From the IMG/VR virus record IMGVR_UViG_3300046501_000460, positions 1 to 64,000 of that record: DNA of 64,000 nt; one strand, given 5' to 3'. This DNA is from a virus. The notes beneath the pieces are model-generated. The model worked only from the letters and a program-made list of their open reading frames with translations, was not told where the DNA came from and did not search any database. A program made the position numbers and the translations under genes. This document shows, in pieces, positions 6,053-60,800 of this stretch (position 1 is the first letter of the stretch; every line of letters begins with the position of its first letter).

Positions 6053-6913
6053 ATGCTCTGGATCCCACTCACCGAACCACATCGCCTGCCGGCCGCGTGC
6101 GGCCTGTACCTGATCCGCCATCGCGAGTCTGGCCTGGAATACGTGGGCAAGTCCGTGAACATCCGCTCTCGGGCCTACGATCATCGCCGGGCCCGCACCG
6201 GCGTCACGTACTTGTACCGTGCGATCCGTAAGCACGGCGTCGAGGCATTCGATATTTGCGTGCTGGCGCTTGGCACCGAGGCCGAGATGACGCAACTGGA
6301 GATCGACACGATCGCCGCGCGCGGCACGTTCAACCCAGCCGGCTACAACCAGACGCGTGGCGGGGATGGCATCTCCGGTTATCGGGCGACACCGGAGCAT
6401 CGCGCAGCGATCAGCGCGCGGCAGCTGGGCCGGGCGATCACCGAAGAGACGAAAGCGAAAATGCGAGAGTCGCGGCTGATCAACAACCCGTTCAGAGGGC
6501 GCAGGCACTCGCCGGAAACGTTGGCGAAGATGTCCGCCGCGCTGACTGGGCGGCCTTCCGTCAAATCAGAGGAAGGGATGGAATCGTTCAGAGCGGCGAT
6601 GGCGAAGCGTCGAGGTAAGCCGGGGCATAAGCACACCGATGAAATGCGGCAACATCTGAGCGACGTCAAGAAGGGCGTCCCGAGGCCTGATGGATTTGGA
6701 GATCGCTATCGCGGAGAGAAGAATCCCATGTTCGGAAAACGCTCAGCATTTGCGAAGCAGGTTATAGCCTGGGTGCCGAATAGCCTGACACCGATGACGT
6801 TTGACACAGCTGAACTGGCAGCGATATGGGCAGGCTGCAGTGCTGCGAGCATGAGTGCTTATTGCTCCGGTAAGCAAAGAGCAAAATCTGGAATCCTATT
6901 TGCGTTCGCATGA
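6053..6913 (+). CDS. GIY-YIG homing endonuclease with NUMOD3-type repeats
   Basis: A 286-residue protein. The GIY-YIG nuclease domain is near the N-terminus: GLY at 17-19, YVG at 30-32, Arg at about 38-40, and the catalytic Glu at about 83 in 'Q-L-E-I-D-T-I', followed by 'Y-N-Q-T-R-G-G'. Residues of roughly 110-235 hold several NUMOD3-like DNA-binding repeats ('H-S-P-E-T-L-A-K-M-S', 'N-P-M-F-G-K'). It acts as a selfish element that cuts related genomes lacking it. It is the only plus-strand gene inside the late minus-strand operon, with its own promoter and a shared terminator, so it is a free-standing insertion. It looks intact. Confidence 0.9.
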   Translation: MLWIPLTEPHRLPAACGLYLIRHRESGLEYVGKSVNIRSRAYDHRRARTGVTYLYRAIRKHGVEAFDICVLALGTEAEMTQLEIDTIAARGTFNPAGYNQTRGGDGISGYRATPEHRAAISARQLGRAITEETKAKMRESRLINNPFRGRRHSPETLAKMSAALTGRPSVKSEEGMESFRAAMAKRRGKPGHKHTDEMRQHLSDVKKGVPRPDGFGDRYRGEKNPMFGKRSAFAKQVIAWVPNSLTPMTFDTAELAAIWAGCSAASMSAYCSGKQRAKSGILFAFA

Positions 6914-31975: not shown

Positions 31976-32170
31976 AAGAATCCGACATCGCCCACGAGAA
32001 CAGCCGCTACTGGGTGCCGCGACGTGAAGCGCGCCGCGTACACCGTCTACGTCAGCGGCGCCACCCATTCCACCAGCGACAGCAGCTACCCGCTCACCGC
32101 GGACGGCCTATCGCTGGCCAAAGCCCGGGCCGATTATCTGGCCGGGCGCGACAAGGAGAAGACGAAATGA
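31972..32170 (+). pseudogene. Small gene broken by a one-base frameshift, or frameshift-expressed
   Basis: An ATG at 31972 in ATGA overlap opens a frame with a plausible start (MKESDIAHENSRYWV) that turns into Arg/His-rich nonsense after about codon 18. The +1 frame then becomes clearly coding ('Y-T-V-Y-V-S-G-A-T-H-S-T-S-D-S-S-Y-P' and 'L-A-K-A-R-A-D-Y-L') and stops at 32170, overlapping the next ATG as expected. Together they match one continuous phage protein of about 65 residues that I recognise by appearance. A base is inserted, or shifted, between about 32008 and 32026. Starting at a GTG (32024) is the alternative. Confidence 0.6.
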
Positions 32171-32421
32171 CACGTGAGCGTGAAACCTACAACCAGGAGC
32201 TTGCGGCGATCGACCGGCAGACGCGCGCGGCCCGCAAGGAGCTGAACGCGTTGATTCGCGGCGCCGAGGCCTTCGACCTCGTGCTGACGATCGAGCAGTC
32301 GCCGCTGTGGCCGCCGGCCATGGGCAATTACGAGACCGTCGGCAAGGTGCGCCTGTCGCGTGAGCGGTACCAACGACTTGCGGCGCTGAAGGCCGCGGCC
32401 GAGAAGTCCGAAACGAAATAA
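32167..32421 (+). CDS. Small helical protein (84 aa)
   Basis: ATG at 32167, coupled to the previous stop, ribosome site AAGGAGA. Charged helices at both ends with a Pro/Trp loop in the middle. Unrecognised. Confidence 0.75.
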   Translation: MTRERETYNQELAAIDRQTRAARKELNALIRGAEAFDLVLTIEQSPLWPPAMGNYETVGKVRLSRERYQRLAALKAAAEKSETK

Positions 32422-32449
32422 CCCACCACCCACCCACAAAGGAACCCAC

Positions 32450-34492
32450 ATGTCCGACCAATTCCACCTCTTTTCCAAAGCCGTGCACGCCCAGTTTACC
32501 GAGATGATCAAGGGCGAGCTCTTCGTCGTCGACATCGACGGCGACACCCTGTACGAAGCCTACCAGGCGGCCTTTCCGGCCGGCACCAACGAGATCTTCC
32601 GCACGCGGCGCGAGCACGAGTGCAGCTGCTGTGAGAATTTCATCCGCAACATCGGCAACGTGGTGTCGATCCGCGACGGCAAGCTGGTGACGGTGTGGGA
32701 TGTGACGGTGCTGGCGCTGCCGGTCCCGTACGGACAGGTGGCCAGCACACTTGCCGCGGCGGTCCGCGCCGGTACGATCAAGTCCGTGTTCCGCAGCGAG
32801 ATGCCGTCCTATGGCGCCGAGAAGACGGCCGAGCCGGCCAACGAAAAGAACGGCGGTTGCCAGATTATCTGGAACCACTTCCACGGCAAGGTCGCCAAGG
32901 CGCACTATGCCGGCAAGGAAGCCGCGGCGCGCATCGGCGAGGCAGCCGCGCTGGCCCAGGTGCTGGGCCGCGGCTTGCGCGAGATCCGCCCGGACGATGT
33001 CCAGACCGTGCTCGAGCTGATCGACGCGAACGCGCTGTATCGCGGCGCCGAGAAGCGCCATGTCGTGCAGGGCTTCCAGCACCTGCAGGGTGACTTTCTG
33101 CTCACCGAGACCGAGCAGGAGGACCTGTTCATCTGGTCCAACATCTCCCACCCGGCTGCGCGCACCCGAAACGACGTCATCGGCACGCTGCTGACAGACC
33201 TTGCGGAAGGCAAGCCGCTGGAACTGGCCGTCAAGTCCTACGAGGACAAGGTGTCGGGCACGAACTACAAGCGCCCGACGGCCTTGATCACGCCGCGCAT
33301 GGTGGAAGACGCGATGAGGACCGTGCAGGAACTGGGCCTCGAGCCCGCGCTGCAGCGCCGCTTCGCGCGCATCGACGACGTGTCCGTCAACGATATCCGC
33401 TTCGTCGACAACGCGGTGCGCGGCCGCATGAAGGGCGGCCTGTCCGATCTGCTGATGGCCGAGGCGAAGAAGAACGTGACGGTCGACGCCGGCGCCGCGC
33501 AGGATATCGGCGTCGACGACTTCCTCGCGACCGTCGTGCCGAAGGCGAAGTCGATGTCGGTGCTGCTGAAGAACCGGCACCTGCCGAACTTCGTCAGCCT
33601 GACGGCGCCTGTGCACGCCGACGCGCCGCCGCTGTTCAAATGGGACAACGGCTTCGCCTGGTCGTACGACGGCAACGTGACCGATTCGATCAAGGATCGC
33701 GTGAAGGCGGCCGGCGGCGTTACTGACGCGGTGATGCGTGTGTCGCTGGCCTGGTTTAATTTCGACGACCTCGACCTGCATGCGATCGAGCCGGGCGGCC
33801 ATGAGATCTGCTTCCACCAGTACCGCAAGGGTCGTACCCCGGCCTTCTCCCCGAACGGCGGCCAGCTCGACGTCGACATGAATGCCGGCGGCGGCTCCAC
33901 TCGTAACGCGGTCGAGAACATCATCTGGCAGAAGGTGCCCGGCGACGGCGAGTACCGCGTTGTCGTGCACAATTATTCGAAGCGCGAGACCACCGATAAC
34001 GGCTACACGCTGGAAGTCGAATTCGGCGGTGTCGTGCGCCAGTTCAGCTGCCCGGTCTCGCCGCGCAACAACGGCCAGGACCTCGCGCTGGTGATCACGA
34101 TGAAGGGCGGCCGCATCGCGCAGATCCAGTGCGGCGTCGGCATCGAAGCCGGCGACAAGGCGCAGGAGAAGTGGGGCGTGCACACCGAGCAGTTCGTGAA
34201 GGTCGACACCCTGATGCTCTCGCCCAATCACTGGGGTGAGCAGGCCGTCGGCGCCAAGCACACGATCTTCATCCTCGACGGCTGCAAGAATCCGGCGCCG
34301 ACGCGCGGCGTCTACAACGAGTTCCTGCGCAGCGACCTCGACAAGCACCGCAAGGTGTTCGAACTGCTGGGCGCGAAGACCATGTGCCAGCCCGCCGCCG
34401 ACCAGCTGTCCGGCGTCGGCTTTACGGCGGCGCGCGGCGATGAAGTCGTCGTCCAGGTGGACGGCGGCCGGCAGTACAACGTGAAGTTCTAA
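32450..34492 (+). CDS. Large protein (680 aa) with DUF2135-like beta domain
   Basis: Start 32450 with AAAGGAAC upstream. Residues 1-370 are mainly helical and include 'C-S-C-C' near residue 60. Residues of roughly 400-560 form a beta sandwich with 'L-A-W-F-N-F-D-D-L-D-L-H-A-I-E-P-G-G' and 'G-G-Q-L-D-V-D-M-N-A-G-G-G', which follows the 'WdtndtDLDLhv..P.G' pattern of DUF2135/YfaP-like domains, often in secreted or toxin-associated proteins and probably calcium-binding. It is by far the largest gene of the cassette and has spaced, uncoupled neighbours, so it may be made at high level. Role unknown. Confidence 0.7.
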   Translation: MSDQFHLFSKAVHAQFTEMIKGELFVVDIDGDTLYEAYQAAFPAGTNEIFRTRREHECSCCENFIRNIGNVVSIRDGKLVTVWDVTVLALPVPYGQVASTLAAAVRAGTIKSVFRSEMPSYGAEKTAEPANEKNGGCQIIWNHFHGKVAKAHYAGKEAAARIGEAAALAQVLGRGLREIRPDDVQTVLELIDANALYRGAEKRHVVQGFQHLQGDFLLTETEQEDLFIWSNISHPAARTRNDVIGTLLTDLAEGKPLELAVKSYEDKVSGTNYKRPTALITPRMVEDAMRTVQELGLEPALQRRFARIDDVSVNDIRFVDNAVRGRMKGGLSDLLMAEAKKNVTVDAGAAQDIGVDDFLATVVPKAKSMSVLLKNRHLPNFVSLTAPVHADAPPLFKWDNGFAWSYDGNVTDSIKDRVKAAGGVTDAVMRVSLAWFNFDDLDLHAIEPGGHEICFHQYRKGRTPAFSPNGGQLDVDMNAGGGSTRNAVENIIWQKVPGDGEYRVVVHNYSKRETTDNGYTLEVEFGGVVRQFSCPVSPRNNGQDLALVITMKGGRIAQIQCGVGIEAGDKAQEKWGVHTEQFVKVDTLMLSPNHWGEQAVGAKHTIFILDGCKNPAPTRGVYNEFLRSDLDKHRKVFELLGAKTMCQPAADQLSGVGFTAARGDEVVVQVDGGRQYNVKF

Positions 34493-34520
34493 CCACCCAC
34501 CCACCATGAAAGGAAATACC

Positions 34521-34958
34521 ATGTCTGAAAACACCGTCAACATCTTCGAGCAAGCGACCCGCCAGAAGCTGCGCTTCGATACGCCCACGCACTCCGGCCT
34601 CTCCATCGAGCAGCTGTGGGATCTGCCGCTGCAGACCACCCGCACCAACCAGTCCGACCTCGACGGCGCCGGCCGTGTGCTGATCAAGGCGCTGCGCGAG
34701 CTCGACGACGACAGCCTCGTCACGCCGCGCAACACCGATGCGCATGCCGAACTGGAACTGAAGCTGGCCGTCGTCAAGCACATCATCGGCGTGCGCCAGG
34801 CCGAAGGTGCTGCCAAGGCGGCACGCGTCGCTGCAGCAGGCGAGGCCCAGCAGCTGGAATCCCTGCTTGCGACGAAGAAGGCGGCCGAGCTGCAGAACCT
34901 GCCGACCGAGGAAATCGAGAAGCGCCTGGCCGAGGCCCGCGCCCGCGCCGCCAGCTGA
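34521..34958 (+). CDS. Helical protein (145 aa) paired with the 680-aa protein
   Basis: Start 34521 (MSENTVN) with AAAGGA eight bases upstream. Residues 95-143 are a long Ala/Glu-rich helix. It lies 28 bases after the 680-residue gene and shares its spaced, strong-ribosome-site style, so a functional pair is likely. I recognise 'L-S-I-E-Q-L-W-D-L-P-L' as typical of small phage hypotheticals. Confidence 0.75.
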   Translation: MSENTVNIFEQATRQKLRFDTPTHSGLSIEQLWDLPLQTTRTNQSDLDGAGRVLIKALRELDDDSLVTPRNTDAHAELELKLAVVKHIIGVRQAEGAAKAARVAAAGEAQQLESLLATKKAAELQNLPTEEIEKRLAEARARAAS

Positions 34959-34968
34959 TCAACGTGAC

Positions 34969-34986
34969 GGGAGGCTGCGGCCTCCC
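34969..34986 (+). terminator. Hairpin after the paired genes
   Basis: Stem 34969-34975/34980-34986 (GGGAGGC with GCCTCCC, TGCG loop). No U-tract, so a weak terminator or 3'-end stabiliser. Confidence 0.4.
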
Positions 34987-34999
34987 GCTGGAGAAACCT

Positions 35000-35044
35000 A
35001 TGAAGAAACGCCGCATCGCCAAGCCGGAGGTCGAAGATGCCTGA
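35000..35044 (+). CDS. 14-residue basic leader peptide (doubtful)
   Basis: ATG at 35000 with GGAGA six bases upstream; encodes MKKRRIAKPEVEDA and overlaps the next ATG at 35037. It could serve as a coupling leader for the next gene. Confidence 0.3.
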   Translation: MKKRRIAKPEVEDA

Positions 35045-35273
35045 CCGACGCTGGCACACCACCTGGTGGTGGTTCCTGATCGGCTGGGTCTGGCACGGCG
35101 AGCGCCGCTCCGGCTTCGACCGGCGCCAGCGCACCGCCGACCTGCCCGCCATCAACCGCACACTGCTCGGCCTGCCGATCGTCATCGACGACAGCGTGCC
35201 GCCCGGGCATGTCGAATTCCGCAGCGGCCGGCGCACGGTCGACATCGAAATTAATACGAAGGAAGAAAAATGA
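35037..35273 (+). CDS. Small protein (78 aa), unassigned
   Basis: Trp-rich N-terminus ('T-T-W-W-W-F-L-I-G-W-V-W') that may touch the membrane, basic middle, strands at the end. ATGA overlap with the next gene. Confidence 0.65.
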   Translation: MPDRRWHTTWWWFLIGWVWHGERRSGFDRRQRTADLPAINRTLLGLPIVIDDSVPPGHVEFRSGRRTVDIEINTKEEK

Positions 35274-35578
35274 AAGTCCAACTGTACGCCTACCTGACCG
35301 AATTCGATATGCAGTACCTCAAGCCGGAAGACCTGCGCGATGTCGACAAGTTGGTTCCCCAGCTGCACTACTCCACCGTGGATCCGGCCCGGATCAGCAA
35401 CGTGACCGTCGGCACCGCCGAGATCGATGTCGAGCTGCTGCCGCCCGAGCAGATCATCGGCAATGCCGTGCTGTCCCTGCGCTCCAAGGCGGCTGGTGTT
35501 CGCGCCAAGGCGACGGCCGAGGCGGCCGTGTTGGAAGGTAAGGCGCAGCAGCTGCTGGCCATCGAGAACAAATCGTAG
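35270..35578 (+). CDS. Protein of 102 aa, unassigned
   Basis: Beta-alpha-beta pattern with an Ala/Lys-rich helix at 70-98. ATGA overlap at its start. Unrecognised. Confidence 0.75.
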   Translation: MKVQLYAYLTEFDMQYLKPEDLRDVDKLVPQLHYSTVDPARISNVTVGTAEIDVELLPPEQIIGNAVLSLRSKAAGVRAKATAEAAVLEGKAQQLLAIENKS

Positions 35579-37315: not shown

Positions 37316-37714
37316 ATGGCCGACTATCACATCCCTGTGTTCCTCGAACAGCCTGTCGTCGAGGAGCCGCCCAAACCCCCACCGCGCCGCGTCCGGCCGC
37401 CTGTCGACACGTTCGAGACGGTCAGCGAGCGGATCGAAAGCCTCAGAGCGCACCTCGCCGTTTACCGGGCCCGGGTCACGAATCTGACCCAGCGTGCCGC
37501 TGTGCTGCGTGAGCAGGCGCGCCAGCTGGAGCTGCAGGCCGAAGAGCTCGATCCCATCATGCAGGACATCAGCCGGGTCCGCAACGTCCTGTACCAGAAG
37601 CGGCTGCGGCTGCGGCTGCGCCCACCACCCGAAGGAGAAACAACATGTTCCACCCCTACGTCATCAGCCTCGACAACGACAAGTACCGCGTCATCAACGA
37701 CAACGGAATCCTGA
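37316..37714 (+). CDS. Coiled-coil protein (132 aa) running into the next gene
   Basis: Pro-rich N-terminus, then a coiled coil (residues 40-95). At 37600-37619 the DNA repeats CGGCTG three and a half times, giving 'L-R-L-R-L-R'. The last 23 codons overlap the next gene in another frame and give a Ser/Thr string, so the natural end may have been lost by slippage in the repeat. Confidence 0.6.
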   Translation: MADYHIPVFLEQPVVEEPPKPPPRRVRPPVDTFETVSERIESLRAHLAVYRARVTNLTQRAAVLREQARQLELQAEELDPIMQDISRVRNVLYQKRLRLRLRPPPEGETTCSTPTSSASTTTSTASSTTTES

Positions 37715-37953
37715 CCTTTCTGCGCTACGGTGCCGCGTGGCCGTCAGCGCAGGAAAGCCTGGCGTTTTCGAAGGTCGTGCTGGCCATGGCCCAGCGCATC
37801 GAGGAGCTGGAGGTCGCGATCGGCGAGGTGCTGGGCGGTACCATGCAGGCGAATGGGCAGCGCGCTACGGATGGCATGAAGTATGCCGCCGTGATGGGCA
37901 AGCCAGTCGGGCACTGGCAGGAGCGCCTGCAGCGCGTGCTGGAGCAGAAATAA
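37645..37953 (+). CDS. Protein of 102 aa, unassigned
   Basis: ATG at 37645 with GAAGGAGA upstream. N-terminal strands ('Y-V-I-S-L-D-N-D-K-Y-R-V-I'), then helices ('R-I-E-E-L-E-V-A-I-G-E-V-L'). TAATG junction with the next gene. Confidence 0.75.
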   Translation: MFHPYVISLDNDKYRVINDNGILTFLRYGAAWPSAQESLAFSKVVLAMAQRIEELEVAIGEVLGGTMQANGQRATDGMKYAAVMGKPVGHWQERLQRVLEQK

Positions 37954-38531
37954 TGCCCACCCCAACCCTCACCCGCAAGCAGTACCTCGGCCGCCGGCAG
38001 GAGATGTTCGAGAAGTGGCTGGTCGAGCGCGGCGCCGAATTGCTCACGCCCACCAACGAATGGGAGCTGCTGCGCTTCCGGACCGAGAAGGGCACCGGCA
38101 TCATCTACACGAACAAGCACGGCCATCTGACGTGGATGGGCCCGGCTACTGAGGCATACCTTGCGCACGTCAGCAACCGGTCCAGCTGGCGCGCGGTGCC
38201 TAGGGAGGAGCGCAAGTACAAGTCGAGCCCGACGTGCCAGGCGCTGCGCCGGCGCGACGGCGATGCTTGCTTTTACTGCCATCTGCCGGTCGCCGTCGAG
38301 GACGAGTCGGTCGAGCACCTCGTGAACCTGACGCATCAAGGTCCGGACCACATCGCCAACATGGCGCTGGCGCACCGCGACTGCAACCGCGAGGCCGGCC
38401 ATCTGTCGGTGATGGAGAAGATCCGCTTCCGCGAGACGTGCTGGCAGCGCCTGCACACGCATGGCACGCTGGCGAACCCTGCGCTGGAGATGGTCGAGGC
38501 GCCCGGCGAAATCACACCACCTTGGGACTGA
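37953..38531 (+). CDS. HNH endonuclease-like protein (192 aa)
   Basis: Start at 37953. Residues 97-155 form an HNH-type zinc fold: 'R-D-G-D-A-C-F-Y-C', then 'V-E-H-L-V-N-L-T-H-Q-G', 'N-M-A-L-A-H-R-D-C-N'. Cys pairs and the H-N-H spacing are intact. The N-terminal 95 residues are an unrecognised, probably DNA-binding, domain. Tight coupling to neighbours is unlike a homing gene; it may have a phage function such as DNA processing. Confidence 0.8.
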   Translation: MPTPTLTRKQYLGRRQEMFEKWLVERGAELLTPTNEWELLRFRTEKGTGIIYTNKHGHLTWMGPATEAYLAHVSNRSSWRAVPREERKYKSSPTCQALRRRDGDACFYCHLPVAVEDESVEHLVNLTHQGPDHIANMALAHRDCNREAGHLSVMEKIRFRETCWQRLHTHGTLANPALEMVEAPGEITPPWD

Positions 38532-44577: not shown

Positions 44578-44613
44578 CTGATGTTCCCTTTCCCTACAGA
44601 AAAAATCACAACC

Positions 44614-45462
44614 ATGTGGCTCAAGAACGCAACCATCTACGGGATCTCCCCCAAAGCACAATTCCCCATCGAGCAGCTGCAGGCTGCTCGATTCGTTCCT
44701 GTCGACAGCCTGCAGCTGCAGTCGGTCGGCTTCTCGCCAGTCCGCGAGGGCGAACTTGCCTACAGGCAAGGTAAGCACATCCTGCTGCGTTTCACGATCG
44801 AGAAGAAGCACATCCCGGGCTCGGCCGTAGCTGTGCTGGTGGAAGACAAGGCCGCGGCGCTGGAGAAAGCGCAGGGCTTCCCGCCGGGCAAGAAGGCGCG
44901 CAAGGAGCTCAGGGAGCGTGCGATCGACGAACTGCTGCCGCGCGCGCTGTCGACCCGCCGCACGACGCAGGTCTGGATCGACCAGGACCAGCACCGCATC
45001 GTGATCGATTCGGCCTCGAACTCGACCTGCGACGAGATCATCAAGGCGATGATCAAGCTGTTCCCGACGATCGAGTTCCAGGACGTCAGCTGGCCGCGCG
45101 CCAAGGTCGTGACGGCGTGGGTGGCCGACGAGGAGCCGGACGACTTCACGATGGACGATTCGGTCGTGCTGCAGTACCCGGGCGAGAAGGGCAAGCGCGT
45201 GAAGTTTGAACGCGCGACGGCGCAGGGCGCGGACGTGATCAACCACCTGACGGCCGGCGCCCACGTCGACTCGGTCGCCATGACCTTCTCCAGCCGCCTG
45301 TCGTTCGTCATGACGGACAACATGCGCATCCGCCGCATCAAGGCGCTGGACATCGTGCAGGAGGGCCGCGACGCTGAGAACGACGACCGCTTCGACAGCG
45401 ACGTCGCGCTGATGACGCGCGAACTGGGCTGCCTGATCGACGCTCTGGTGCGGGAGGCGTGA
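44614..45462 (+). CDS. rdgC: RdgC-like recombination-associated protein
   Basis: A 282-residue protein, near the 300 of host RdgC. Start 44614 (MWLKNATIYGI), because RdgC proteins begin M-W-F-K/R-N-L-x-x-Y; the frame is open 11 codons further up. Matching features include 'F-V-P-V-D-S-L-Q-L-Q-S-V-G-F', 'Y-R-Q-G-K-H-I-L-L-R-F' and the centre 'R-T-T-Q-V-W-I'. RdgC is a ring that binds duplex DNA and restrains RecA. In a phage it could shield its own DNA or limit RecA-driven recombination at forks. First gene of the replication block; coupled to the next gene (TGATG). Confidence 0.88.
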   Translation: MWLKNATIYGISPKAQFPIEQLQAARFVPVDSLQLQSVGFSPVREGELAYRQGKHILLRFTIEKKHIPGSAVAVLVEDKAAALEKAQGFPPGKKARKELRERAIDELLPRALSTRRTTQVWIDQDQHRIVIDSASNSTCDEIIKAMIKLFPTIEFQDVSWPRAKVVTAWVADEEPDDFTMDDSVVLQYPGEKGKRVKFERATAQGADVINHLTAGAHVDSVAMTFSSRLSFVMTDNMRIRRIKALDIVQEGRDAENDDRFDSDVALMTRELGCLIDALVREA

Positions 45463-45770
45463 TGGGCATCCGTAAAATTGGGCCCGTGACCGAGGTCACG
45501 CCCGGTCAGTGGATTCTGCAGACCCCGCTGCTGAACGACCACCTCGTGTCCGAGCCGCGCGAGGTTATCCGCCGCTCCGGCAAGCGCATCTACTATCGCA
45601 ACCGCCACGGAGAGGACGATGGCACCTACTGCAGCATCGCGACGGTAGTGGCCCTGTGCGACACGAAGGCGGATGCGGACACCGTGTACGCCGTCAGCAA
45701 GTCGCAGTTCGATGCCCTGCGCGCGGTGCGTCACGACCACCTCGGCCGTCTCAAGGCGCTGGTCGCATGA
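45462..45770 (+). CDS. Small protein between RdgC and methyltransferase (102 aa)
   Basis: ATG at 45462 in TGATG junction. Strand-rich start ('Q-W-I-L-Q-T-P-L'), a helix at the end ('S-K-S-Q-F-D-A-L-R-A-V'). Its stop overlaps the methyltransferase start. Not recognised. Confidence 0.7.
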   Translation: MGIRKIGPVTEVTPGQWILQTPLLNDHLVSEPREVIRRSGKRIYYRNRHGEDDGTYCSIATVVALCDTKADADTVYAVSKSQFDALRAVRHDHLGRLKALVA

Positions 45771-47134
45771 CCGCGTACTACAACGAATTCAACCCCGCGG
45801 CGGCCGAGTGGCTGCGCAACCTGATCGCAGAAGGCCTGATCGCGCCGGGCGTGGTCGACGAAAGGAGCATTGCCGATGTCACACCCGGAGACCTTGCCGG
45901 ACTTGACCAAGTACATTGGTTTGCCGGAATCGGAGGCTGGTCCCTCGCTCTCCGACTTGCAGGCGTCCCTGATAGCCGTCCAGTCTGGACGGGCAGCGCG
46001 CCTTGCCAGCCTTTCTCCTCGGCAGGCGCAGGCGGCGGGTTTGATGATGAGCGGCACCTGTGGCCCGCTCTCTTCCACCATGTCAGCGTCCGACGACCTG
46101 CAGAAATCTTTGGAGAGCAGGTTGCAAGCAAGCCTGTCGACCTGTGGATCGACGCTTTACAAGCTGACCTGGAAAGCGTGGGTTACGCCGTCGGGGCGGT
46201 TGCGTTCCCGTCTGCGGGCTGTGGCGCACCGCACATCCGAGACCGCTGCTACTGGGCTGGCCGGCTGGGTAACGCCGACGTCACGCGACTGGAAGGATTC
46301 GGGAGCGGACATTCGACCCCGCTCGGACAATGGCAAGGCTCGACTGGACCAGCTGCCACGCCAGGCGAACCTGTGTGGCTGGCCGACGCCGATCGCGAAG
46401 GAGGCCAAGGCGGGTCTGCACTGCTCGAATCAGGTGACGGTGAGCATGGCGGCCCAACTGGTTGCGGACGGTCCGGCCCGGTTGCTGGTTTCTGGCGAGA
46501 CGCTGACTGGCTCAGTTGCCGGGACGGCAAGTGGCGGCCAGTTGAACCCATCCCACAGCAGATGGTTGATGGGCTACCCAAAAGCCTGGGACGATTGCGC
46601 TCCGAACAAACCCACGCGTTCGCGAAAGAGGTGATGGAGTATGCCGAGGCCTGCGAAATCGACGCCAGAGAAGCGCTGCACAATGTGTGGATGTCGCTTG
46701 CAGAGGAGACGCTTCGGCGAACGTCTGGAGGACTTTCAGGCGTTCATGAAGCGCCAGTTTTGCTCGCTTTCCTGCGCCAACTCGCGTACGAAGGGTGGGA
46801 CGTCGCGCAGGGCTTACCAAGCCCAAGCCCGCAAACTCCGGAAGGAGGCCTGCGAGTGTTGTGGGAGCGTGAAGCTGCTGCACGTGCATCACATCAACGA
46901 GGACTGGTCGGACAATCGTCCGGAAAACACGCAGACGCTGTGCGTGTTTTGTCATCAGTTCTGGCACGCCACACACAGGCGTGCTGGGGTGAAGCCTTCG
47001 ACCGCCATGCCTCCGATGCCGTTCCTCTCATCGGTGACGCAAGGTCTCGGGTGATTCGTCTGCACGGCTACGGCAACGCCATTAACCCGTACGCCGCGGC
47101 CGCCTTTCTCAAAGCATTTTACGGAGTAAACTGA
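45767..47134 (+). CDS. DNA cytosine-C5 methyltransferase
   Basis: A 455-residue protein with motif I '[11 protein letters not shown]' at 52-62, catalytic motif IV '[12 protein letters not shown]' with Cys80, 'F-G-E-Q-V' in place of the usual E-N-V, motif VIII 'P-H-I-R-D-R-C-Y-W' and motif X 'G-Y-G-N-A-I-N-P' at the C-terminus. The variable region also reads like phage relatives ('[11 protein letters not shown]', '[10 protein letters not shown]'). It probably marks phage DNA against host restriction. Two other genes lie nested in its +1 frame (45876-46634 and 46641-47054). ATGA overlap at its start. Confidence 0.9.
45876..46634 (+). CDS. Protein nested in the +1 frame of the methyltransferase (252 aa)
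   Basis: ATG at 45876 with AAAGGAG (45861-45867) eight bases upstream, all inside methyltransferase codons. The product shows phrases I know from separate phage proteins: '[11 protein letters not shown]', '[11 protein letters not shown]', 'S-R-D-W-K-D-S-G', '[13 protein letters not shown]'. The whole gene lies within the methyltransferase gene. Function unknown; the companion arrangement suggests a tie to DNA modification or its protection. Confidence 0.75.
46641..47054 (+). CDS. HNH endonuclease nested in the methyltransferase frame (137 aa)
   Basis: ATG at 46641 with AGGTGA upstream, six bases after the first nested gene and in the same +1 frame. N-terminal zinc ribbon 'C-T-M-C-G' with 'F-C-S-L-S-C', then a classic HNH: 'C-E-C-C-G', '[12 protein letters not shown]', '[11 protein letters not shown]'. 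All catalytic and zinc residues are present. Such proteins sit near terminase or methylation genes in phages. Its whole coding length is shared with the methyltransferase. Confidence 0.8.
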   Translation: MPRPAKSTPEKRCTMCGCRLQRRRFGERLEDFQAFMKRQFCSLSCANSRTKGGTSRRAYQAQARKLRKEACECCGSVKLLHVHHINEDWSDNRPENTQTLCVFCHQFWHATHRRAGVKPSTAMPPMPFLSSVTQGLG

Positions 47135-47476
47135 ATGACCGCCGGAATCCTGGGCCCCTGTGCCCGCCGCGTTGTCCGCTGCACCCTGATCACGCCCGGC
47201 GGCCACGCCATCATCGGCGAGAACTGGTGCATGAACCCACAGCCCGCGTGCCCGCGCGCCGAGGGCGAAGGGTACGAGAAGTGCCAGACGATCTGCCATC
47301 AGGTCGGCCACGCCGAGGAAGTCGCGGTGCTGCTGGCCGGGCCGTCAGCGGTCGGTGCCCACGCCTATGTCGAGAACCACACGTACGCCTGCCGCAACTG
47401 CCAGGAAGTCCTGTTTGCTGCCGGCGTCGCCGCGCTGACGATCGGCGCGCCACCTGATCGGAGGGAAGATGTTTGA
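47135..47476 (+). CDS. dCMP/cytidine deaminase-like protein (113 aa)
   Basis: Zinc-binding 'G-H-A-E-E' at 58-62 and 'Y-A-C-R-N-C-Q' at 84-90 with the spacing of the H-A-E...P-C-x-x-C deaminase core; Pro is replaced by Ala. An extra Cys set ('A-C-P-R', 'K-C-Q-T-I-C') precedes it, as in dCMP deaminases of the ComEB type. It could convert dCMP to dUMP, or act on a modified pyrimidine. It directly follows the cytosine methyltransferase. Confidence 0.75.
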   Translation: MTAGILGPCARRVVRCTLITPGGHAIIGENWCMNPQPACPRAEGEGYEKCQTICHQVGHAEEVAVLLAGPSAVGAHAYVENHTYACRNCQEVLFAAGVAALTIGAPPDRREDV

Positions 47477-47693
47477 CAACGAAATTTTCAACGCAGGCCT
47501 GCACCATGTGGTTGCGGGTCTGCCGGGCGCGCTGTTGCTGTGGATCGGCGTCTGGATGGGGCGCCGCTCGCGCGACATCGAAGTCCACGGCTACAGGCTG
47601 ACGAACAGGTTCCTCGAGAACCTCGCGGTCATGAACGCGAAGATCGCGGACAAGGCACTTGCCGAGATCAGCAAGTCGCGGAAGGATACTTGA
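47469..47693 (+). CDS. Small membrane-anchored protein (74 aa)
   Basis: One hydrophobic span (residues 12-30, 'V-V-A-G-L-P-G-A-L-L-L-W-I'), then a basic helix of 40 residues. N-out or N-in anchored adapter. Overlaps neighbours at both ends. Confidence 0.7.
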   Translation: MFDNEIFNAGLHHVVAGLPGALLLWIGVWMGRRSRDIEVHGYRLTNRFLENLAVMNAKIADKALAEISKSRKDT

Positions 47694-48127
47694 TGCCCTC
47701 GACCCCTGACTTCAACGTCGCCCGGGATCTCGAAAAAGTGCGCGCCTTAACGGCGCGCATTTCGTATCCCCACTGGATGCATCGGCCCGGGACCTGGACG
47801 TGGACGCGCCCCGACGGCATGTCGCAGGGCTTCTCGTCGATGATCTACACCCAGCCTGGCCTGTGCAATCTGCTGTGGCTGGCGATGGATCTGGACCGGC
47901 CGCCCGAGGCGTACAACGCGCTGGCCAACCCGCTGTACATGCTGCTGGTGGTCAATCGCGATGCGAAGCTGCGCGGCGAGCCGCTGACGGATATGGCGGC
48001 CCTGCTGACGCTGCGCCAATTCCACGACCTGCTGCCGGAATCGACAGCGGCCGTGAACCCGGTCGAGCACGCCTACCCGCTGCTACGACTGCTTGCGGAA
48101 AGGAGGCTCGATCATGCTCACCCTTGA
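47693..48127 (+). CDS. Protein of 144 aa, unassigned
   Basis: ATG at 47693 in TGATG junction. Mostly helical, with Trp-rich 'P-G-T-W-T-W-T-R-P'. It overlaps the HNH gene start by 14 bases. Unrecognised. Confidence 0.7.
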   Translation: MPSTPDFNVARDLEKVRALTARISYPHWMHRPGTWTWTRPDGMSQGFSSMIYTQPGLCNLLWLAMDLDRPPEAYNALANPLYMLLVVNRDAKLRGEPLTDMAALLTLRQFHDLLPESTAAVNPVEHAYPLLRLLAERRLDHAHP

Positions 48128-48722
48128 GCAGGCGCAGGCTGCTGGACTGCGGCGTTTCTTTACGGGTCAGCCCTGCCGTAATGGCCACGCCGCAGAGCGA
48201 TATGTCGCTGGCGGCGCATGCGTGCAGTGTGCAGCGGTTCGAATGGCGAAAGCGTCAAAAAAGTGGAAGGACGCACATCGAGAGTTGATGCGCCAGGCCA
48301 GCAAATCATGGAGGGGTTCCAATGCAGATAAGGTGAGGGCGACCAACGCTGCCTGGGCCGCTGCGAATCCGACCCTGAAAGCCGAGATGCACAGGGCCTG
48401 GCGAGAAGCTAACCCGGAGTATCACCGTCGATACTCTGCCGCACGCCGTCAAAAGCAGTCCGAGGATCAGCTGTCACGAGGCATCGTGGAGAGACTGTGG
48501 CAGCTCCAAGCTGGCCGCTGCGCCTGCCCCTGCCGGCAGCACCTGCTGCGGAATGATTTTCACATTGACCATATCGTCGCGCTCTCCCGTGGCGGGCGGA
48601 ACATCGACAGCAACGTGCAATTGCTAACTCCGGAATGCAACCTGAAGAAGTACAACAAGGACAATTCGGAATTTTTCGTTGAGCAGGCTGCGAGATTCGG
48701 AGGGCGGCATGCTCACACTTGA
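48114..48722 (+). CDS. HNH homing endonuclease (202 aa) with copied helicase start
   Basis: Start 48114 with AAAGGAGG upstream. N-terminal zinc segment 'F-F-T-G-Q-P-C-R-N-G-H' plus 'C-V-Q-C', a helical linker with repeats, then HNH 'C-P-C-R' with 'F-H-I-D-H-I-V-A-L-S-R-G-G' and 'N-V-Q-L-L-T-P-E-C-N'. The first 20 bases are 19/20 identical to the first 20 of the helicase gene at 48709. It looks inserted at the 5' end of the helicase gene, rebuilding that start for itself. Lower GC than neighbours. Confidence 0.85.
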   Translation: MLTLEQAQAAGLRRFFTGQPCRNGHAAERYVAGGACVQCAAVRMAKASKKWKDAHRELMRQASKSWRGSNADKVRATNAAWAAANPTLKAEMHRAWREANPEYHRRYSAARRQKQSEDQLSRGIVERLWQLQAGRCACPCRQHLLRNDFHIDHIVALSRGGRNIDSNVQLLTPECNLKKYNKDNSEFFVEQAARFGGRHAHT

Positions 48723-50215: not shown

Positions 50216-50698
50216 ATGGATAACCCATCCACAGCGCGGGCGCACAAGCTCGCGCTGCAGGCCAAGTGGCTCAACCAGCGCATGGTCGACAACGACCGCT
50301 GGACGCTGGACATGCCCAGCCCGCGCGTGGTCAAGGTGAGCGACCGGAAGACCTTCATTGCCTGGCGCAGGGACGCTGCCGGCAAGGTGGAGGTCGTTGA
50401 TATGTTGCGTGTTAACGACGTCGAGATTTCGTTTACCCGCGGCATCACTGTCAAGTTCAGCGCTGGCGCCACTTCCAACACCATCTGCATCACCGCGCAC
50501 CCGCGCGAGATCGTCCCGGGCGTCTTCGCCTGGATCCCACCGCACGCCGAGCTCCGCTACGGCCCGCACAATCCCGAGGACGCGACGTCGCGCTGGCGCC
50601 TCACCTTGCCGATGCTCGTTCGGCAGATGACCACCAGTTCGACTGTCCTGTCGACGCTCAAGGAATTTCAGGACCTCCACCCCAACATTAGCCTGTGA
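50216..50698 (+). CDS. Protein of 160 aa before the primase, unassigned
   Basis: Start 50216 (MDNPSTARA) with AAGGA eight bases upstream; an in-frame ATG at 50183 has none. Helical N-terminus, beta-rich centre ('E-V-V-D-M-L-R-V-N-D-V-E-I-S-F') and helical end. Its place eight bases before the primase-helicase suggests a replication accessory. Confidence 0.75.
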   Translation: MDNPSTARAHKLALQAKWLNQRMVDNDRWTLDMPSPRVVKVSDRKTFIAWRRDAAGKVEVVDMLRVNDVEISFTRGITVKFSAGATSNTICITAHPREIVPGVFAWIPPHAELRYGPHNPEDATSRWRLTLPMLVRQMTTSSTVLSTLKEFQDLHPNISL

Positions 50699-50705
50699 GG
50701 CCCGC

Positions 50706-53645
50706 ATGAGCGCATTCCACTACTACCAGATCAAGGGTGGCGAAGAGGCATGGCAGGCCGTGCCGGTATCCCACCGCGACCAGATTCTGCAGGACGTGCG
50801 CCCGGTCTTCATGACCGTGCTGTCCGTCTCCAAGCTGGTTGACGAATTGTCCTACGAGGAGAAGCTGAAGCTGGCGTACGCCGGCCCGTTCTATTCCGAT
50901 TTCGACTCGGAAGACGAGACGCTCGTGATCGTCAAGGTCAATGAATACCTCGACAAGCTCGAAGGCCTGGGCGTCGACCTCGAGATGTGTCGCCTGTTCG
51001 CCACCGGCGGGCGCGGCTTTCACATCGAGGTGCCGCCCGAGGTCTTCATGGAGAAGGTGCCCAAGGGCGGCGTCGTCGGTCTGCCGTCGGTCTATCGCGA
51101 GATGGCGCTGGCGCTGGCCGTCGACACCCTCGACCTGAAGATCTATTCGACCGGGCGCGGCCGCATGTGGCGCACGCCCAACGTCAAGCGTCAGAACGGC
51201 CGCTACAAGGTACCCATCACGGTCGCCGAGATGCGGGAGATGACCCCCGAACTTGCGATCCTTCTGTCGTCGCAACCGCGCGAGAGCGTGCCGGTCAAGT
51301 CGCCGGCCTTCTGCGTCAAGCTGTCGATCGAATTCTCCAAGGCGTCCCAGAAGGTCGAGGATCTGCTGAAGAAGCGCGCGCGCTTCAAGCCGGATCCGGC
51401 GATGCGTGAACGTGCGTCGGCCGAGTCGGTGCACTTCATGATGGCCGGCCTGGGCATCAAGGAGTCCGCCGGCTTTCAGGAGATCGCCACGCAGCTGGCC
51501 ATCGCCGCGGTGACCGCGGGCCTGAACGAGGACCGCTTCATCGTCGAGTGCGAGGGGCTGATCAACAACCACAAGGGCGATAGCAGCCGCTACGGCTCGC
51601 CGGCGAAGCGCACCGAAGAGCTGCGCCGCATGCACCGCTACATGGACGGTAACGCCTGCTACGAATTCTCGGTCGGCGCAATCAAGACGCTGCTGAATCA
51701 TGCCGCGCCCGATCTCGACGGCATTGCCGTCACGAAGGAAGAAGTCCTCGAAGAGATCGAGAGCGCGGCCCAGCAGACCGAGGACGAAGCGGAGCTGCAG
51801 GACGAGTATGCGGACGTGGCCAAGGGCGTGACGCTGTCGAAATACGGCGTCTACATGGACGGCGAGTTCGGCAAGAAGCGGATCTGCGCGGTGTCGTTCG
51901 ACGCGGCCTCGATTCTCATGTCGAGCGAGACGGACCAGATCATCGGCTACGACGCCACGGTGCTGGTCAACGGCAAGTCGGTGGGCAACGTCACGCTGGA
52001 GGTCGACATGTTCAGCGGGCTGGTGCCTTTCAACCGGTTCGTGGCGAAATACGGGCACGCCTTTCAGGGCAATGACGCCCAGGTAAGGACGGTAATGATG
52101 CGTTTTGTAGAGCAGGCAAAGAAGAAGGGCAACATCAGCTACATCGTGACGCGCGAGGGTCTCGACATCGTCAACATCCCGAACCACCCGGACCCGGCGC
52201 TGCATGAGCCGTTCATGGTGTGGGCGGACAACCACGGCGTCCGCCTGGAACCGCGCGTGGCCGACCTTGGGCTGAAGATCAAGTTCGCCGGCTACCCGGA
52301 CCCGCGCGGGATGTTCAAGACCGACATCTCGAACGCGCCTGCGCTGGCCCAGTGGCTGGCCGAGCCAGGCAACAAGGCGCTGCTGGCCGACACCTTGGGC
52401 AACCTGCTGGCGTGCCAGCGGCCTGAGGTGCTGGGCAAGGTGTTGGGCTGGTACACGGCCTGCTTCTGGAAGCAGCTGTTCCAGAAGCACTACGGCAAGT
52501 TCCCGCTGCTGCACGTGAATGGGCCGGCCGGCATGGGCAAGACCGAGATGCAGATCGGCATCTCGAACCTGTTCTACTGGCGCGGCGAGCCGCGGCCGCT
52601 GTCGCCCGGGTCGACCAACTTCGCGCTGCTGCAGCACCTGATGGCGTCGTCGTCGATCCCGCTGATACTTGACGAGTACAAGCCGCACGTGATGCTCAAG
52701 CAGCGCGTCGACCAGCTCAAGGGTCTGTTCCGCGATGCCTACAACCAGCGTGACCAGGCGCGTGGTGGCGGCTCGCGCGAGAGCGACGACTACCGTGTGC
52801 TGCAGTTCTCGCAGATGGCCGCGCCGATGGCGTTCATCGCCGAGGCGGCCGAGGAAGAGGCGGCCGTCATGGAGCGCGTCGTGCTGGTCACGCTGGCGCG
52901 TCCGGCGCAGAGCCAGGGCCTGAAGAACCACGCGCACTGGCAGGCGTTCTGGCGCAATCGTCATCTGCTGGGGATTCTCGGGCAATACCTCGCCATGAGT
53001 GTTTTGGAGGAGGCAAATGCTGAAAAGTTCACGGCCGAGTTCGACGATCTGTACAAGGAAGCCAAGGATCGCTTCATGCTGTCCGAGGCCGACTTGAGTG
53101 GCAACCTGAGCGAGGAGGAGTTGAAGGACAAGCAGAACACGAAGGAGCGCCCGGTGTTCAACCACTCGGTCGCGCGCTTCGGGTTCCGCCAGCTGCGGCG
53201 CCTGATCAACGATGCCGTCGGCACCCAGTTCGACGACCGCATGGCCGAGATGGAAGAAGGCGTCTTCGCCCGCCTGCACGATCTGCACGCGGCGACCACG
53301 CCGGAATACGTCAAGGTGCTGTCCGAGATCTCCAGCATGAGCCACCACATCGAGGTCGACCGGCCCGACGCGGTGCGCAAAAACCACGAGTACGCGTTCT
53401 CGCGCATCGGTGGGCGGGACTGTATCGAGATCGCGATCCGGCCGGCGTACCATCGCTACCGCATGCACTGCCGGTCCACCGGGCTGGAGGCGCTGTTCGG
53501 CGGCTTCGAGAGCTTCGCGCACTCGATCCAGGATTGCTCGGCCTTCATCAAGCGCGGTACCGGCGAGGTGCTGCAGATGCCGGGCGTCTACACGTTCGAC
53601 CTGCACGAGCTTGCGCGGATGGGGGTTGATACCTTCAAGAATTAA
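50706..53645 (+). CDS. AEP primase-helicase fusion (979 aa)
   Basis: N-terminal archaeo-eukaryotic-type primase: 'Y-S-D-F-D-S-E-D-E' at 63-71 with the metal-binding D-x-D, 'A-T-G-G-R-G-F-H-I-E' at 99-108, and the basic segment ending 'Q-N-G-R-Y-K-V-P' at 163-170. The C-terminal ATPase has Walker A 'N-G-P-A-G-M-G-K-T' at about 604-612 and Walker B 'I-L-D-E-Y' at about 653-657. A single protein primes and unwinds. It is the largest replication gene after the polymerase and is separated from the next gene by a promoter. Confidence 0.85.
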   Translation: MSAFHYYQIKGGEEAWQAVPVSHRDQILQDVRPVFMTVLSVSKLVDELSYEEKLKLAYAGPFYSDFDSEDETLVIVKVNEYLDKLEGLGVDLEMCRLFATGGRGFHIEVPPEVFMEKVPKGGVVGLPSVYREMALALAVDTLDLKIYSTGRGRMWRTPNVKRQNGRYKVPITVAEMREMTPELAILLSSQPRESVPVKSPAFCVKLSIEFSKASQKVEDLLKKRARFKPDPAMRERASAESVHFMMAGLGIKESAGFQEIATQLAIAAVTAGLNEDRFIVECEGLINNHKGDSSRYGSPAKRTEELRRMHRYMDGNACYEFSVGAIKTLLNHAAPDLDGIAVTKEEVLEEIESAAQQTEDEAELQDEYADVAKGVTLSKYGVYMDGEFGKKRICAVSFDAASILMSSETDQIIGYDATVLVNGKSVGNVTLEVDMFSGLVPFNRFVAKYGHAFQGNDAQVRTVMMRFVEQAKKKGNISYIVTREGLDIVNIPNHPDPALHEPFMVWADNHGVRLEPRVADLGLKIKFAGYPDPRGMFKTDISNAPALAQWLAEPGNKALLADTLGNLLACQRPEVLGKVLGWYTACFWKQLFQKHYGKFPLLHVNGPAGMGKTEMQIGISNLFYWRGEPRPLSPGSTNFALLQHLMASSSIPLILDEYKPHVMLKQRVDQLKGLFRDAYNQRDQARGGGSRESDDYRVLQFSQMAAPMAFIAEAAEEEAAVMERVVLVTLARPAQSQGLKNHAHWQAFWRNRHLLGILGQYLAMSVLEEANAEKFTAEFDDLYKEAKDRFMLSEADLSGNLSEEELKDKQNTKERPVFNHSVARFGFRQLRRLINDAVGTQFDDRMAEMEEGVFARLHDLHAATTPEYVKVLSEISSMSHHIEVDRPDAVRKNHEYAFSRIGGRDCIEIAIRPAYHRYRMHCRSTGLEALFGGFESFAHSIQDCSAFIKRGTGEVLQMPGVYTFDLHELARMGVDTFKN

Positions 53646-53674
53646 TTGACACAGGTAAAGAAGTTTGCCATACT
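53646..53674 (+). promoter_or_regulatory. Strong sigma70-like promoter for the ssDNA-binding-like gene
   Basis: TTGACA (53646-53651), 17-base spacer, CATACT (53669-53674), with TTTGC before the -10. The best rightward member of the shared promoter set; a stand-alone strong unit with the terminator at 54544-54571. Confidence 0.75.
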
Positions 53675-53739
53675 GAATTTTCCCCAAGCCGGGCGGGGAT
53701 CCATGCCCCGGCAATCCGATGATGATAGAGGTAATGAAA

Positions 53740-57801: not shown

Positions 57802-60800
57802 TGAAAAGATACCGTCGCGGCGGCTTTGACATGTCGTCCTTCATGTGGACGATGATGTCGTGGGGGAAGGACAAAGAAAACGGCTACGAGGTCGAGCACG
57901 AAGGGAAAACGGTTTACATCAATTCGGGCCAGTACGGCTACGACAATACGCTCGGCCGCATGCTCGACTGCATGAAGGCTTACAGGCTGAACCCGATCGA
58001 CGTGATCCTCGTGTTCGAAGGCCAGAACAGCAAGGGCAAGCGCCTGCTGATCGACAACCAGTACAAGGGCGGCGACAAGAGTAGCCGCCCACCCGAGGCG
58101 TACGCGGAATTCGAGAAGTGCCGCGAGATGCTGAAGACGACGTTCCGCGAGCTCGGCGCCCAGCTGCTGTGGCAGGACTTCGCCGAGGGCGACGATACGC
58201 TCGGCTGGCTGGCGCACAATACCGAGGACGACCTGATCGTCTTCACGTTCGATAACGACCTGACGGTGTTGAACCTGCACCCGAACACCCACGGCGCGCG
58301 TGTCTCGACGTGGATCAACGAGATGTTCGAGTTCAACAAGTACGGCGTGTTCGACTACCACCTCGTCACCACCTATAAGGCGTTGGTCGGCGACAGCTCG
58401 GACAACATCAAGGGTTGCCCGGGTTTCGGCCCGAAGAAGTTCGAGGCGCTGTGCGAGCAGTACGGCTTCGACGGCCTGGCCGAGATCCACCAGATGCTGG
58501 TGAACAGCAACCTGTCGCCGCTGGCCGACTACATCTCAGGTCCGCAGGACAAGCTGCTGCAGATGATCCTGGACAACGCATCGCAGGTGATCCGCTGCTT
58601 CGACCTTGCGCGTATCCGCCCCGAGTGGGTGAACACCATGCGCAACCCGCTGCACTGGGAAGCCGGCATGGTGCGCCAGCTGCAGCCAACCGACCGCGAC
58701 CCGCGGCTGAAAGCCTGGTACGGCCGTACGCGGCTTATCACCGGCACCACGTTTGCCCAGGCCTGCGAGTGGGCCATGCCGCACATCGCCGCATCGCGCG
58801 AGGTGGCGCTGGACATCGAGACCTCGACGCCGGACGAGTCCGACGAGTGGCTGGCCGCGCTGGGCGACCCGGACGGCGTCGACGTGTTCGGCTCCGAGCT
58901 GACTGGCCTTGCGCTCACGTTCGGTCCGAACAACCAGTACACGCTCTACTTCTCGGTCGACCACGCCGACACGGACAACATCGCCAGCGAGGATCTGCGC
59001 CAGTTCATCGCGTCGATCCCGCAGTCGATCCCGCTCGTCATCCAGAACGTGTCGTTCGAGCTGGCTGTGCTCTTCAACGAGTGGGGCGCGCGCCAGATGG
59101 ACAACGGCTACCACGGCTTCCTGCCGAACGTGCTGGACACGAAGATCGAGGCCAACTACGTCGACGAGAACATCCCGACCGGCCTGAAGCAGCGCTCGCA
59201 CGGCACCCTGGGATACCGCCAGCAGACGTACGAAGAGACGTGCGTGATCACGGCGCACCCGTCCGAGCTGTTCAAGGGCGGCAAGTTCGTGCGCGAGGAC
59301 TACGTCTATGAGACGGTCGGCACTGGCCGTTTCGAGCCGCTGACGGCCGAAGAGGACGCCGCCGGCATCGTGCCGACCGAACTCACGAAGGTGCAGCTGA
59401 AGCTGGTACCAACTGGTGAAGTCGACGAAGCCGGCGAGCCGGTGATGGAGCCAGTCGTGGCCACCCAGACGCGCCGCTACAAGATGCGCGAGCTGCCGGC
59501 GGCCTACGTCCTTGGGTATGGCGCTGATGACACGATCTGCACGATCGCGCTGCACAACTACTACAAGCTGTTCATGCAGCTGGAGCACACGTGGGACGTG
59601 TACCGCGAGGTGGAGATCGACGCGGCCTACCAGCACGCGAAGAACTTCATCGACGGTACCGAGATTTCGGTCGCGCGCTGCAAGGCGCTCGAGCGCGAGG
59701 ACGACATCACGTACGACAACGCCTGGGAGGTGGTGCGCCAGTACCTGATCGAGCAGGGCTGGGCCGGCACGGCGCCGCCGACCTACACGATCGACATCAC
59801 GCCGGCGCAGATCAAGGAGGCGTACACGATCGTGACCGGCGAGGTGCTGGACACGATGATGCGCACGAACTCGAAGATCGTGAAGTTCATCGAGACCGAG
59901 ACGGAGCATCTGCAGTTCGCGCGCATGCTGGATCGGCTGGTGCAGGCCGGCGCGGCCGTGCGCGGCGAGAAGCACGATCTGCCGGATGGCACCGTGCCGG
60001 CCGAGATCGAGAAGGAATTCACCGCGTACGTCCGTGGCTATTTCGAGGGCGAGCCGCAGTTCAACAAGGGTTCGCCGCTGCAGATGCAACGTCTGATGTA
60101 CGGGGTGATGGGCCTGCCGATCCGTGTCCGGAACATGCCGACCGACACGATGAAGAGGGCCGGCATCCGCGAAGGCACGCCGAAGACGGACGCACTGGCC
60201 GTGGCCTACGCCTTGCAGGACTGCATGCCCGAGCAGAAGCCCGTGCTGGAAGCCCTCAAGCTGATGGGCATGGTCACGACGCGCCGCTCGCTGTATTACT
60301 CGAAGTACCCGTACTACCCGCACTGGAAGGACGGCCGCGTGCGCTCGCAGCACAATCAGGCGGCAACCGTTACGCGCCGCGCCAGCGAATCCAAGCCCAA
60401 CAAGCAGCAGCTGCCCAAGCACGCGAAGATCGAGGGGCAGGAGGCCAAGTTCCGCGAGGTGATCGTGCCGCACAAGCCGGGCGCCGTCATTGTCTCCATG
60501 GACTTCGACTCGCAGGAGATGGTGCTGATCGCATTCCAGTCGCAGGACCCGAACGCACTGTCGTGCTTCCAGGGCGAGAAGCGCAAGTCGCCGCACACCA
60601 TCACGGCGCTGGGTATCGTCCGCGAGGAGAACAAGCTCGACTGGACGTACGAGGACTACGAGGCGGCGCTGGAAAAAGCGCTGGGCGACGAGATGGCGCA
60701 CCTCGCCAAGGAGACCCGCAAGCTGGGCAAGAAGGTGAATTTCACGGCCGAATATGGCGCGATGGCCGAGAAGGTCGCCGCCACGCTCATGATCTCGGTT

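Follow-up and report, generated by a model that had tools for sequence, protein, structure and literature searches.

The window analysed here comprises 64,000 nucleotides, corresponding to positions 1 to 64,000 of the IMG/VR virus record IMGVR_UViG_3300046501_000460 (87,574 bases; 87.6 kb), and three same-strand open reading frames (ORFs) are stacked at its methyltransferase locus (Table 1). The longest, termed alpha, encodes a C5-cytosine DNA methyltransferase, and two further ORFs lie in its +1 frame, the first of which is termed beta and the second of which encodes an HNH endonuclease. All three ORFs were present with the boundaries given in the original prediction, as were the perfect AAAGGAG eight bases before the beta ATG and, in the 455-codon frame, the four motifs that it had named (I, IV, VIII, and X). 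The product of the second nested ORF had been described as a complete zinc-ribbon HNH, and it has every zinc and HNH residue that is invariant in its family. The observation of two genuine genes nested in the +1 frame of alpha was confirmed. An RdgC-like gene (window 44581-45462, + strand; PF04381, E=1.7e-68) is located two genes upstream of the methyltransferase.

Table 1. Positions of genes, sites, and segments at the overlapping methyltransferase locus (window coordinates).
Feature	Position	Strand	Basis or remark
Alpha, C5-cytosine DNA methyltransferase (putative large subunit)	45767..47134	+	455 codons/aa; motif, profile, and Foldseek matches
AAAGGAG Shine-Dalgarno sequence of beta	45861..45867	+	alpha frame there reads GAA-AGG-AGC (E-R-S)
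Beta, +1 gene inside alpha, probable motif-IX/target-recognition subunit	45876..46634	+	252 aa; phrog_1008
Motif-IX-like segment of beta	46527..46604	+	near-invariant in 71 betas
HNH insertion, approximate extent	46600..47066	+	DNA comparison with HNH-free relative L003
HNH insertion as read in the alpha frame (about alpha residues 280-420; predicted to be helical)	46604..47030	+	model pLDDT
HNH gene: Shine-Dalgarno-like site AAGAGGTG, overlapping the beta end	46626..46633	+	sequence
Hidden HNH endonuclease (zinc ribbon and HNH), +1 frame, probable homing endonuclease	46641..47054	+	137 aa
Motif X and C-terminus of alpha	47066..47131	+	sequence; comparison with L003

Alpha is a C5-cytosine DNA methyltransferase by its motifs I (FAGIGGWSL), IV (PCQPFS), VI (GEQV), VIII (RDRCYW), and X (GYGNAINP) and by its match to PF00145 (E=2e-10). 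It also matches phrog_363 (E=8e-72) and M.HhaI (E=4e-15), and its fold matches in Foldseek are M.HaeIII and M.HhaI. The PF00145 and M.HhaI matches stop at motif VIII, and motif IX was not found in alpha's own frame.

The length of the beta ORF in the window was not used as proof of a gene, because the +1 open run in this gene alone is not significant against synonymous shuffles (P about 0.1). ORF length alone is weak evidence in this GC-rich genome, since antisense ORFs of 940-1090 codons lie opposite real genes (window 32108-35368, 50688-53714, and 58536-61367, all on the - strand). Among the homologues, a beta-like ORF was present in the +1 frame of alpha in 80 of 80 viral loci for which alpha alone served as the query. 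Of the bacterial loci retrieved with the beta profile, which numbered 80 and came mostly from Pseudomonadota, every one had it in the +1 frame of an alpha ORF; beta without alpha was never found in these two sets. The same arrangement occurs in Paenibacillus, Acinetobacter, and Microbacterium and in Vequintavirinae phages. Stops in the +1 frame of homologues, which had been named in advance as evidence against nested genes, were not encountered, and this frame was open in every homologue fetched. In 63 non-redundant genes, the +1 open run had a median of 298 codons as compared with 148 in synonymous shuffles, and the excess was absent from the other four frames. At the Shine-Dalgarno sequence of beta, the alpha frame reads D-E-R-S-I. 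AGG, a rare codon, encodes this arginine in 49 of the 111 non-redundant homologues, as against 5.9% of the arginine codons elsewhere in the same homologues, and the spelling GAT-GT at an alpha Asp-Val, which creates the beta ATG, is found in 85 of the 111. Judged by this codon usage, the Shine-Dalgarno sequence and start codon of beta are under selection. A frame-aware divergence count over 601 pairs, which are not phylogenetically independent, gave a dNN/dNS of 0.79 and a dSN/dSS of 0.54 for the beta frame in the overlap, compared with 1.16 and 1.29, respectively, when that frame is counted in the 5′ part of alpha outside the overlap, and alpha-synonymous divergence was 0.34 in the overlap versus 0.59 in that 5′ part. 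This overlap-aware comparison, which had been proposed as a check, shows purifying selection on the beta frame. Because of the conservation of the +1 frame, the codons used at its Shine-Dalgarno sequence and start, and the frame-aware divergence, beta is very probably a translated and selected gene.

The beta product matches phrog_1008 (E=2.5e-29) and phrog_31772. Its best-conserved part, (G)GQLNPxHSRWLMGxPxxWDxCAP, resembles C5 motif IX, and LNPxxSRWLMGxPxxW is the near-invariant core of this segment in the alignment of betas. The distribution of the segment among relatives is complementary. In the single-chain actinophage relatives (ShiLan gp70, JKSyngboy gp4, KyMonks1A, Neville, and Estave1), a motif-IX-like segment (e.g., LAPAFSEWMMGWPAGW) stands in frame 0 directly before motif X; the loci concerned are L342, L344, L347, L348, and L352, of which L342 and L344 are flagged by a pattern scan and the other single-chain loci were judged from printed sequences. 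In the split relatives, by contrast, which come from Microbacterium, Acinetobacter, Vequintavirinae, epsilon15, K1ind2, and phiKX1 (L345, L350, L353, L354, epsilon15, K1ind2, and phiKX1), the segment is in the +1 frame and motif X in frame 0, and the pattern scan and printed sequences revealed no such segment in their frame 0. The beta profile matches the +1 ORF of Paenibacillus strongly (E=6e-20) and the in-frame segment of single-chain ShiLan gp70 weakly (domain E=0.003). In the ShiLan gp70 locus itself, a +1 open stretch (L344:2501-2960) resembles the N-terminal half of beta (E=3e-5) and is either a relic or a by-product of alpha conservation. Pfam and PDB profile searches with beta gave no match, and C5 methyltransferases were not among the PDB matches of a 30-mer from its motif-IX-like segment. 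The AlphaFold model of beta, for which rows from annotated phage records were left out of the alignment, was poor (pLDDT 60), and Foldseek found no fold match for it. Because of this poor model and the missing fold match, the "motif IX" label rests on the short motif and its complementary distribution, and the role of beta as a subunit is one that we infer.

The absence of Pfam, PDB, and fold matches would also suit a genuine overlapping gene whose product is an independent phage protein, such as a regulator, an anti-restriction protein, or a DNA-binding factor, instead of a methyltransferase subunit, as would the N-terminal half of beta, for which we know of no counterpart in ordinary C5 methyltransferases. 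Such a protein appears unlikely in view of the constant company of alpha, the replacement of the in-frame segment of single-chain relatives by the C-terminal segment of beta, and the placement of motif IX on a separate small subunit in M.EcoHK31I. Beta is probably the missing motif-IX subunit of the methyltransferase, a role that the original prediction had not recognised, and a split enzyme of the M.EcoHK31I type is the most plausible interpretation of the alpha/beta pair. Alpha, in frame 0, would supply the catalytic domain with motifs I to VIII and X, and beta, for which the same DNA is read in the +1 frame from a separate Shine-Dalgarno sequence, would supply the motif-IX/target-recognition part, so that the two products together could form the methyltransferase.

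The product of the HNH gene matches several phage HNH families, and its gene is absent from the four closest alphas (L003, L008, L009, and L010; 71-77% core identity) as well as from most alpha homologues. Between the window and L082/L084, the alpha cores are about 51-53% identical as against 75-77% for the HNHs, and L089 and L090 share 97% in the HNH versus 68% in alpha. There is no correlation between alpha-core identity and HNH identity over 13 loci that bear an HNH (rho 0.10). When mapped on a tree built from 114 alphas, the presence of the HNH requires 10 changes, at least seven of which are forced by well-supported branches. The segment preceding motif X is duplicated, in diverged copies, at the borders of the insertion; the alpha-frame copies read "DG..xSLGRL" and "PLxxxxxxRVxRLxGYGNAI", and the beta-frame copies read "RWLMGxPxAWDxCAP" and, at the HNH end in several copies, "LPPEWDDCAPTETPS". 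An Rfam search of positions 45000-48000 (E<=1) found no match to an RNA family or intron, on which ground a self-splicing intron in the locus was rejected, and a Pfam search found no intein match. The patchy distribution of the HNH gene suggests homing, and in these features the gene looks like a homing element and not like a restriction partner.

The original prediction had proposed that the methyltransferase and the nuclease could form a self-marking or anti-competitor module. In an overprinted restriction-modification module of this kind, methylation would prevent cutting by the HNH, its cognate restriction enzyme. The location of a methyltransferase and an HNH at one locus would suit such a module, as would the weak similarity of the HNH to the ZorE HNH. 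However, the HNH is missing from the nearest alphas and from most homologues, it moves between unrelated alphas, its similarities do not follow those of alpha on either the pairwise comparison or the tree, and the border duplication fits an inserted element. The self-marking proposal did not stand up to these observations and is very improbable; a type II restriction-modification system, which entails a stable partnership of nuclease and methyltransferase, was rejected because the HNH is mobile across alphas. As a homing endonuclease, the HNH would most likely cut the conserved motif-IX/X segment of alpha/beta genes that lack the insertion, and repair of the cut allele could then copy the HNH gene in. 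A clearly divergent HNH is found at the same insertion site and in the same frame in L022 (L022:3908-4372). The phage is rich in homing-type nucleases, since it carries a GIY-YIG/NUMOD3 endonuclease and two more HNH genes (window 6053-6913, 37494-38531, and 48117-48722, all on the + strand).

In most copies, the ATG of the HNH gene adjoins the stop codon of beta or falls within 6 bases of it, and a purine-rich Shine-Dalgarno-like site lies upstream of this ATG. The HNH may be translated by re-initiation at the stop of beta, as this spacing suggests. Across the HNH, the alpha frame contains no stop in 55 distinct copies (<90% identity), whereas synonymous shuffles predict about 326 stops and the third frame of the same copies has 225; the product of the per-copy probabilities is 1e-159 with the copies treated as independent. 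Over the HNH, the frame-aware test gave the alpha frame a dSN/dSS of 0.76 and a dNN/dNS of 1.21 and the third frame 0.61 and 1.07, respectively, and thus no alpha-specific protein-level constraint beyond that of the unused third frame. Pairwise conservation of the alpha frame over the HNH looked positive against synonymous shuffles. Since the control in the third frame came out high as well (97% of pairs) and the frame-aware test pointed to no alpha-specific constraint, the idea that the HNH stretch encodes a second selected protein was dropped. The earlier proposal that nearly 1.2 kb is under selection in both frames is consequently upheld for the first ~760 bases but not for the HNH stretch, where the alpha frame is free of stops but is under no more purifying selection than the third frame.

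Alpha might instead end functionally before the HNH, with the open alpha frame beyond that point as a passive outcome of GC-rich codon usage. GC-rich DNA has few stops, and the lack of constraint on the alpha-frame residues would be expected in that case, but the stop counts above and the retention of motif X past the insertion in the copies examined leave this explanation with hardly any probability. Alpha would still be produced, lengthened ahead of motif X by a spacer of about 120-140 residues that is probably helical, and may remain active with this insert. In the alpha model, the insert contains helices predicted with confidence at alpha residues 279-341 and 391-418 (pLDDT blocks mostly 82-94), which may be a by-product of the HNH codons, because base 1 of each HNH codon is base 2 of an alpha codon and largely sets hydropathy. 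The lack of stops in its alpha-frame translation is what lets the HNH persist in the gene with neither an intron nor an intein.

The window-like arrangement, with the HNH out of frame and the alpha frame open, was seen in 62 of 80 loci fetched with the HNH, and in 15 of the 80 alpha ends at the HNH insertion (L297, L300, L301, L304-L312, L314, L319, and L320; a divergent group termed the L297 type). In the inspected members of the L297 type, it is the HNH+2 frame, open through the HNH, that encodes motif X, and where beta was detected the HNH+2 ORF with motif X is the beta-frame ORF. In the cases examined, the HNH is thus offset by +1 from the frame that contains motif X, be it that of alpha or another. 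The L297-type loci are apparently split methyltransferases re-wired by the mobile element. A further-reaching possibility, which we hold only tentatively, is that the HNH element was selected as dual-coded, giving a homing nuclease in one frame and, in the other, a benign folded helical insert domain with which an unspliced mobile element can reside in an enzyme just ahead of motif X, and that in some lineages it re-wired the assembly of the split enzyme by transferring motif X from alpha to beta. In L083 (=L262), L289, L290, and L293, beta-like and HNH sequences are fused in one +1 ORF. The record of L178 (Komagataeibacter phage phiKX1) has a beta fragment and short ORFs annotated but lacks a full-length alpha or an HNH gene in its annotation. 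Loci of this kind are often incompletely annotated in public records, and most alpha/beta homologues are annotated as one methyltransferase or not at all.

The locus as a whole is probably a split C5 methyltransferase with overlapping subunit genes that was invaded by a homing HNH gene. Long same-strand overlapping genes of phages are rarely proven, and the alpha/beta family offers a large and testable case, with a selected Shine-Dalgarno sequence, frame-aware purifying selection, and hundreds of homologues; its distribution suggests that an overlap like that of M.EcoHK31I is widespread among phages. Re-initiation at the stop of beta, assisted by a Shine-Dalgarno sequence, could answer, for the alpha/beta family, how hidden out-of-frame HNHs are translated, and the locus shows how a mobile gene sits in a coding sequence without splicing. 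No report of overlapping genes in cytosine methyltransferases beyond M.EcoHK31I was found in a literature search with thin coverage of subscription journals, and the same incompletely covered literature yielded no report of the alpha/beta/HNH combination, the broad phage spread of the overlap, the coupled start, or the motif-X frame switch. The three-gene stacking, the proposed translation coupling, and the loci with motif X moved into the frame of beta appear to be new, while the alpha/beta overlap and the hidden out-of-frame HNH are of kinds already known from M.EcoHK31I and the ShiLan domain, respectively.

Lee, Kam and Shaw are said to have found in 1995 that the small gene of M.EcoHK31I is nested inside the large one in another frame. 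The M.EcoHK31I small subunit has 176 aa, whereas beta has 252 aa and is found in a phage record. By motif layout, this two-polypeptide enzyme (YGGCCR) resembles the alpha/beta pair in that motif IX is off the large subunit; its large subunit holds motifs I-VIII and X, and motif IX alone is on the small subunit (PMC3404938). Unlike in M.EcoHK31I, an HNH gene is inserted before motif X in the present locus, and no cognate restriction gene was recognised next to alpha/beta. M.AquI is likewise a split C5 methyltransferase, with motifs I-VIII on the large subunit and IX-X on the small one; the L297-type loci share with it the placement of motif X, which they have on the beta frame, whereas alpha retains motif X in the window. 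Homing genes within coding genes with duplicated ends are known from fungal atp6 and rps3 and from phage Aeh1 nrdA/mobE, which are similar to the present locus in having a homing gene in a coding sequence together with border duplication or a split host gene. In contrast to those cases, the host reading frame here runs through the HNH gene in another frame. A counterpart in this respect is the ShiLan domain, a hidden out-of-frame HNH reported in 2025 in a phage methylase gene, the frame of which stays open (PMC11855218). The ShiLan element has no detectable intron and a patchy distribution, the first residues of its insert resemble what follows the insertion site, and according to its authors the HNH lacks a recognisable ribosome-binding site (PMC11855218). 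The two systems share the out-of-frame HNH, the open host frame, the patchy distribution, the similarity at the borders, and the lack of a detected intron, and the ShiLan HNH matches the window HNH weakly (13.7 bits) over the HNH motif only. The methylase differs, however, and the insertion in the window lies in an already overlapping gene pair, where a Shine-Dalgarno-like site precedes the HNH gene, whose start is located at the stop of beta. Judged by these shared features, the HNH of the window is a hidden out-of-frame HNH of the ShiLan kind in another methylase.
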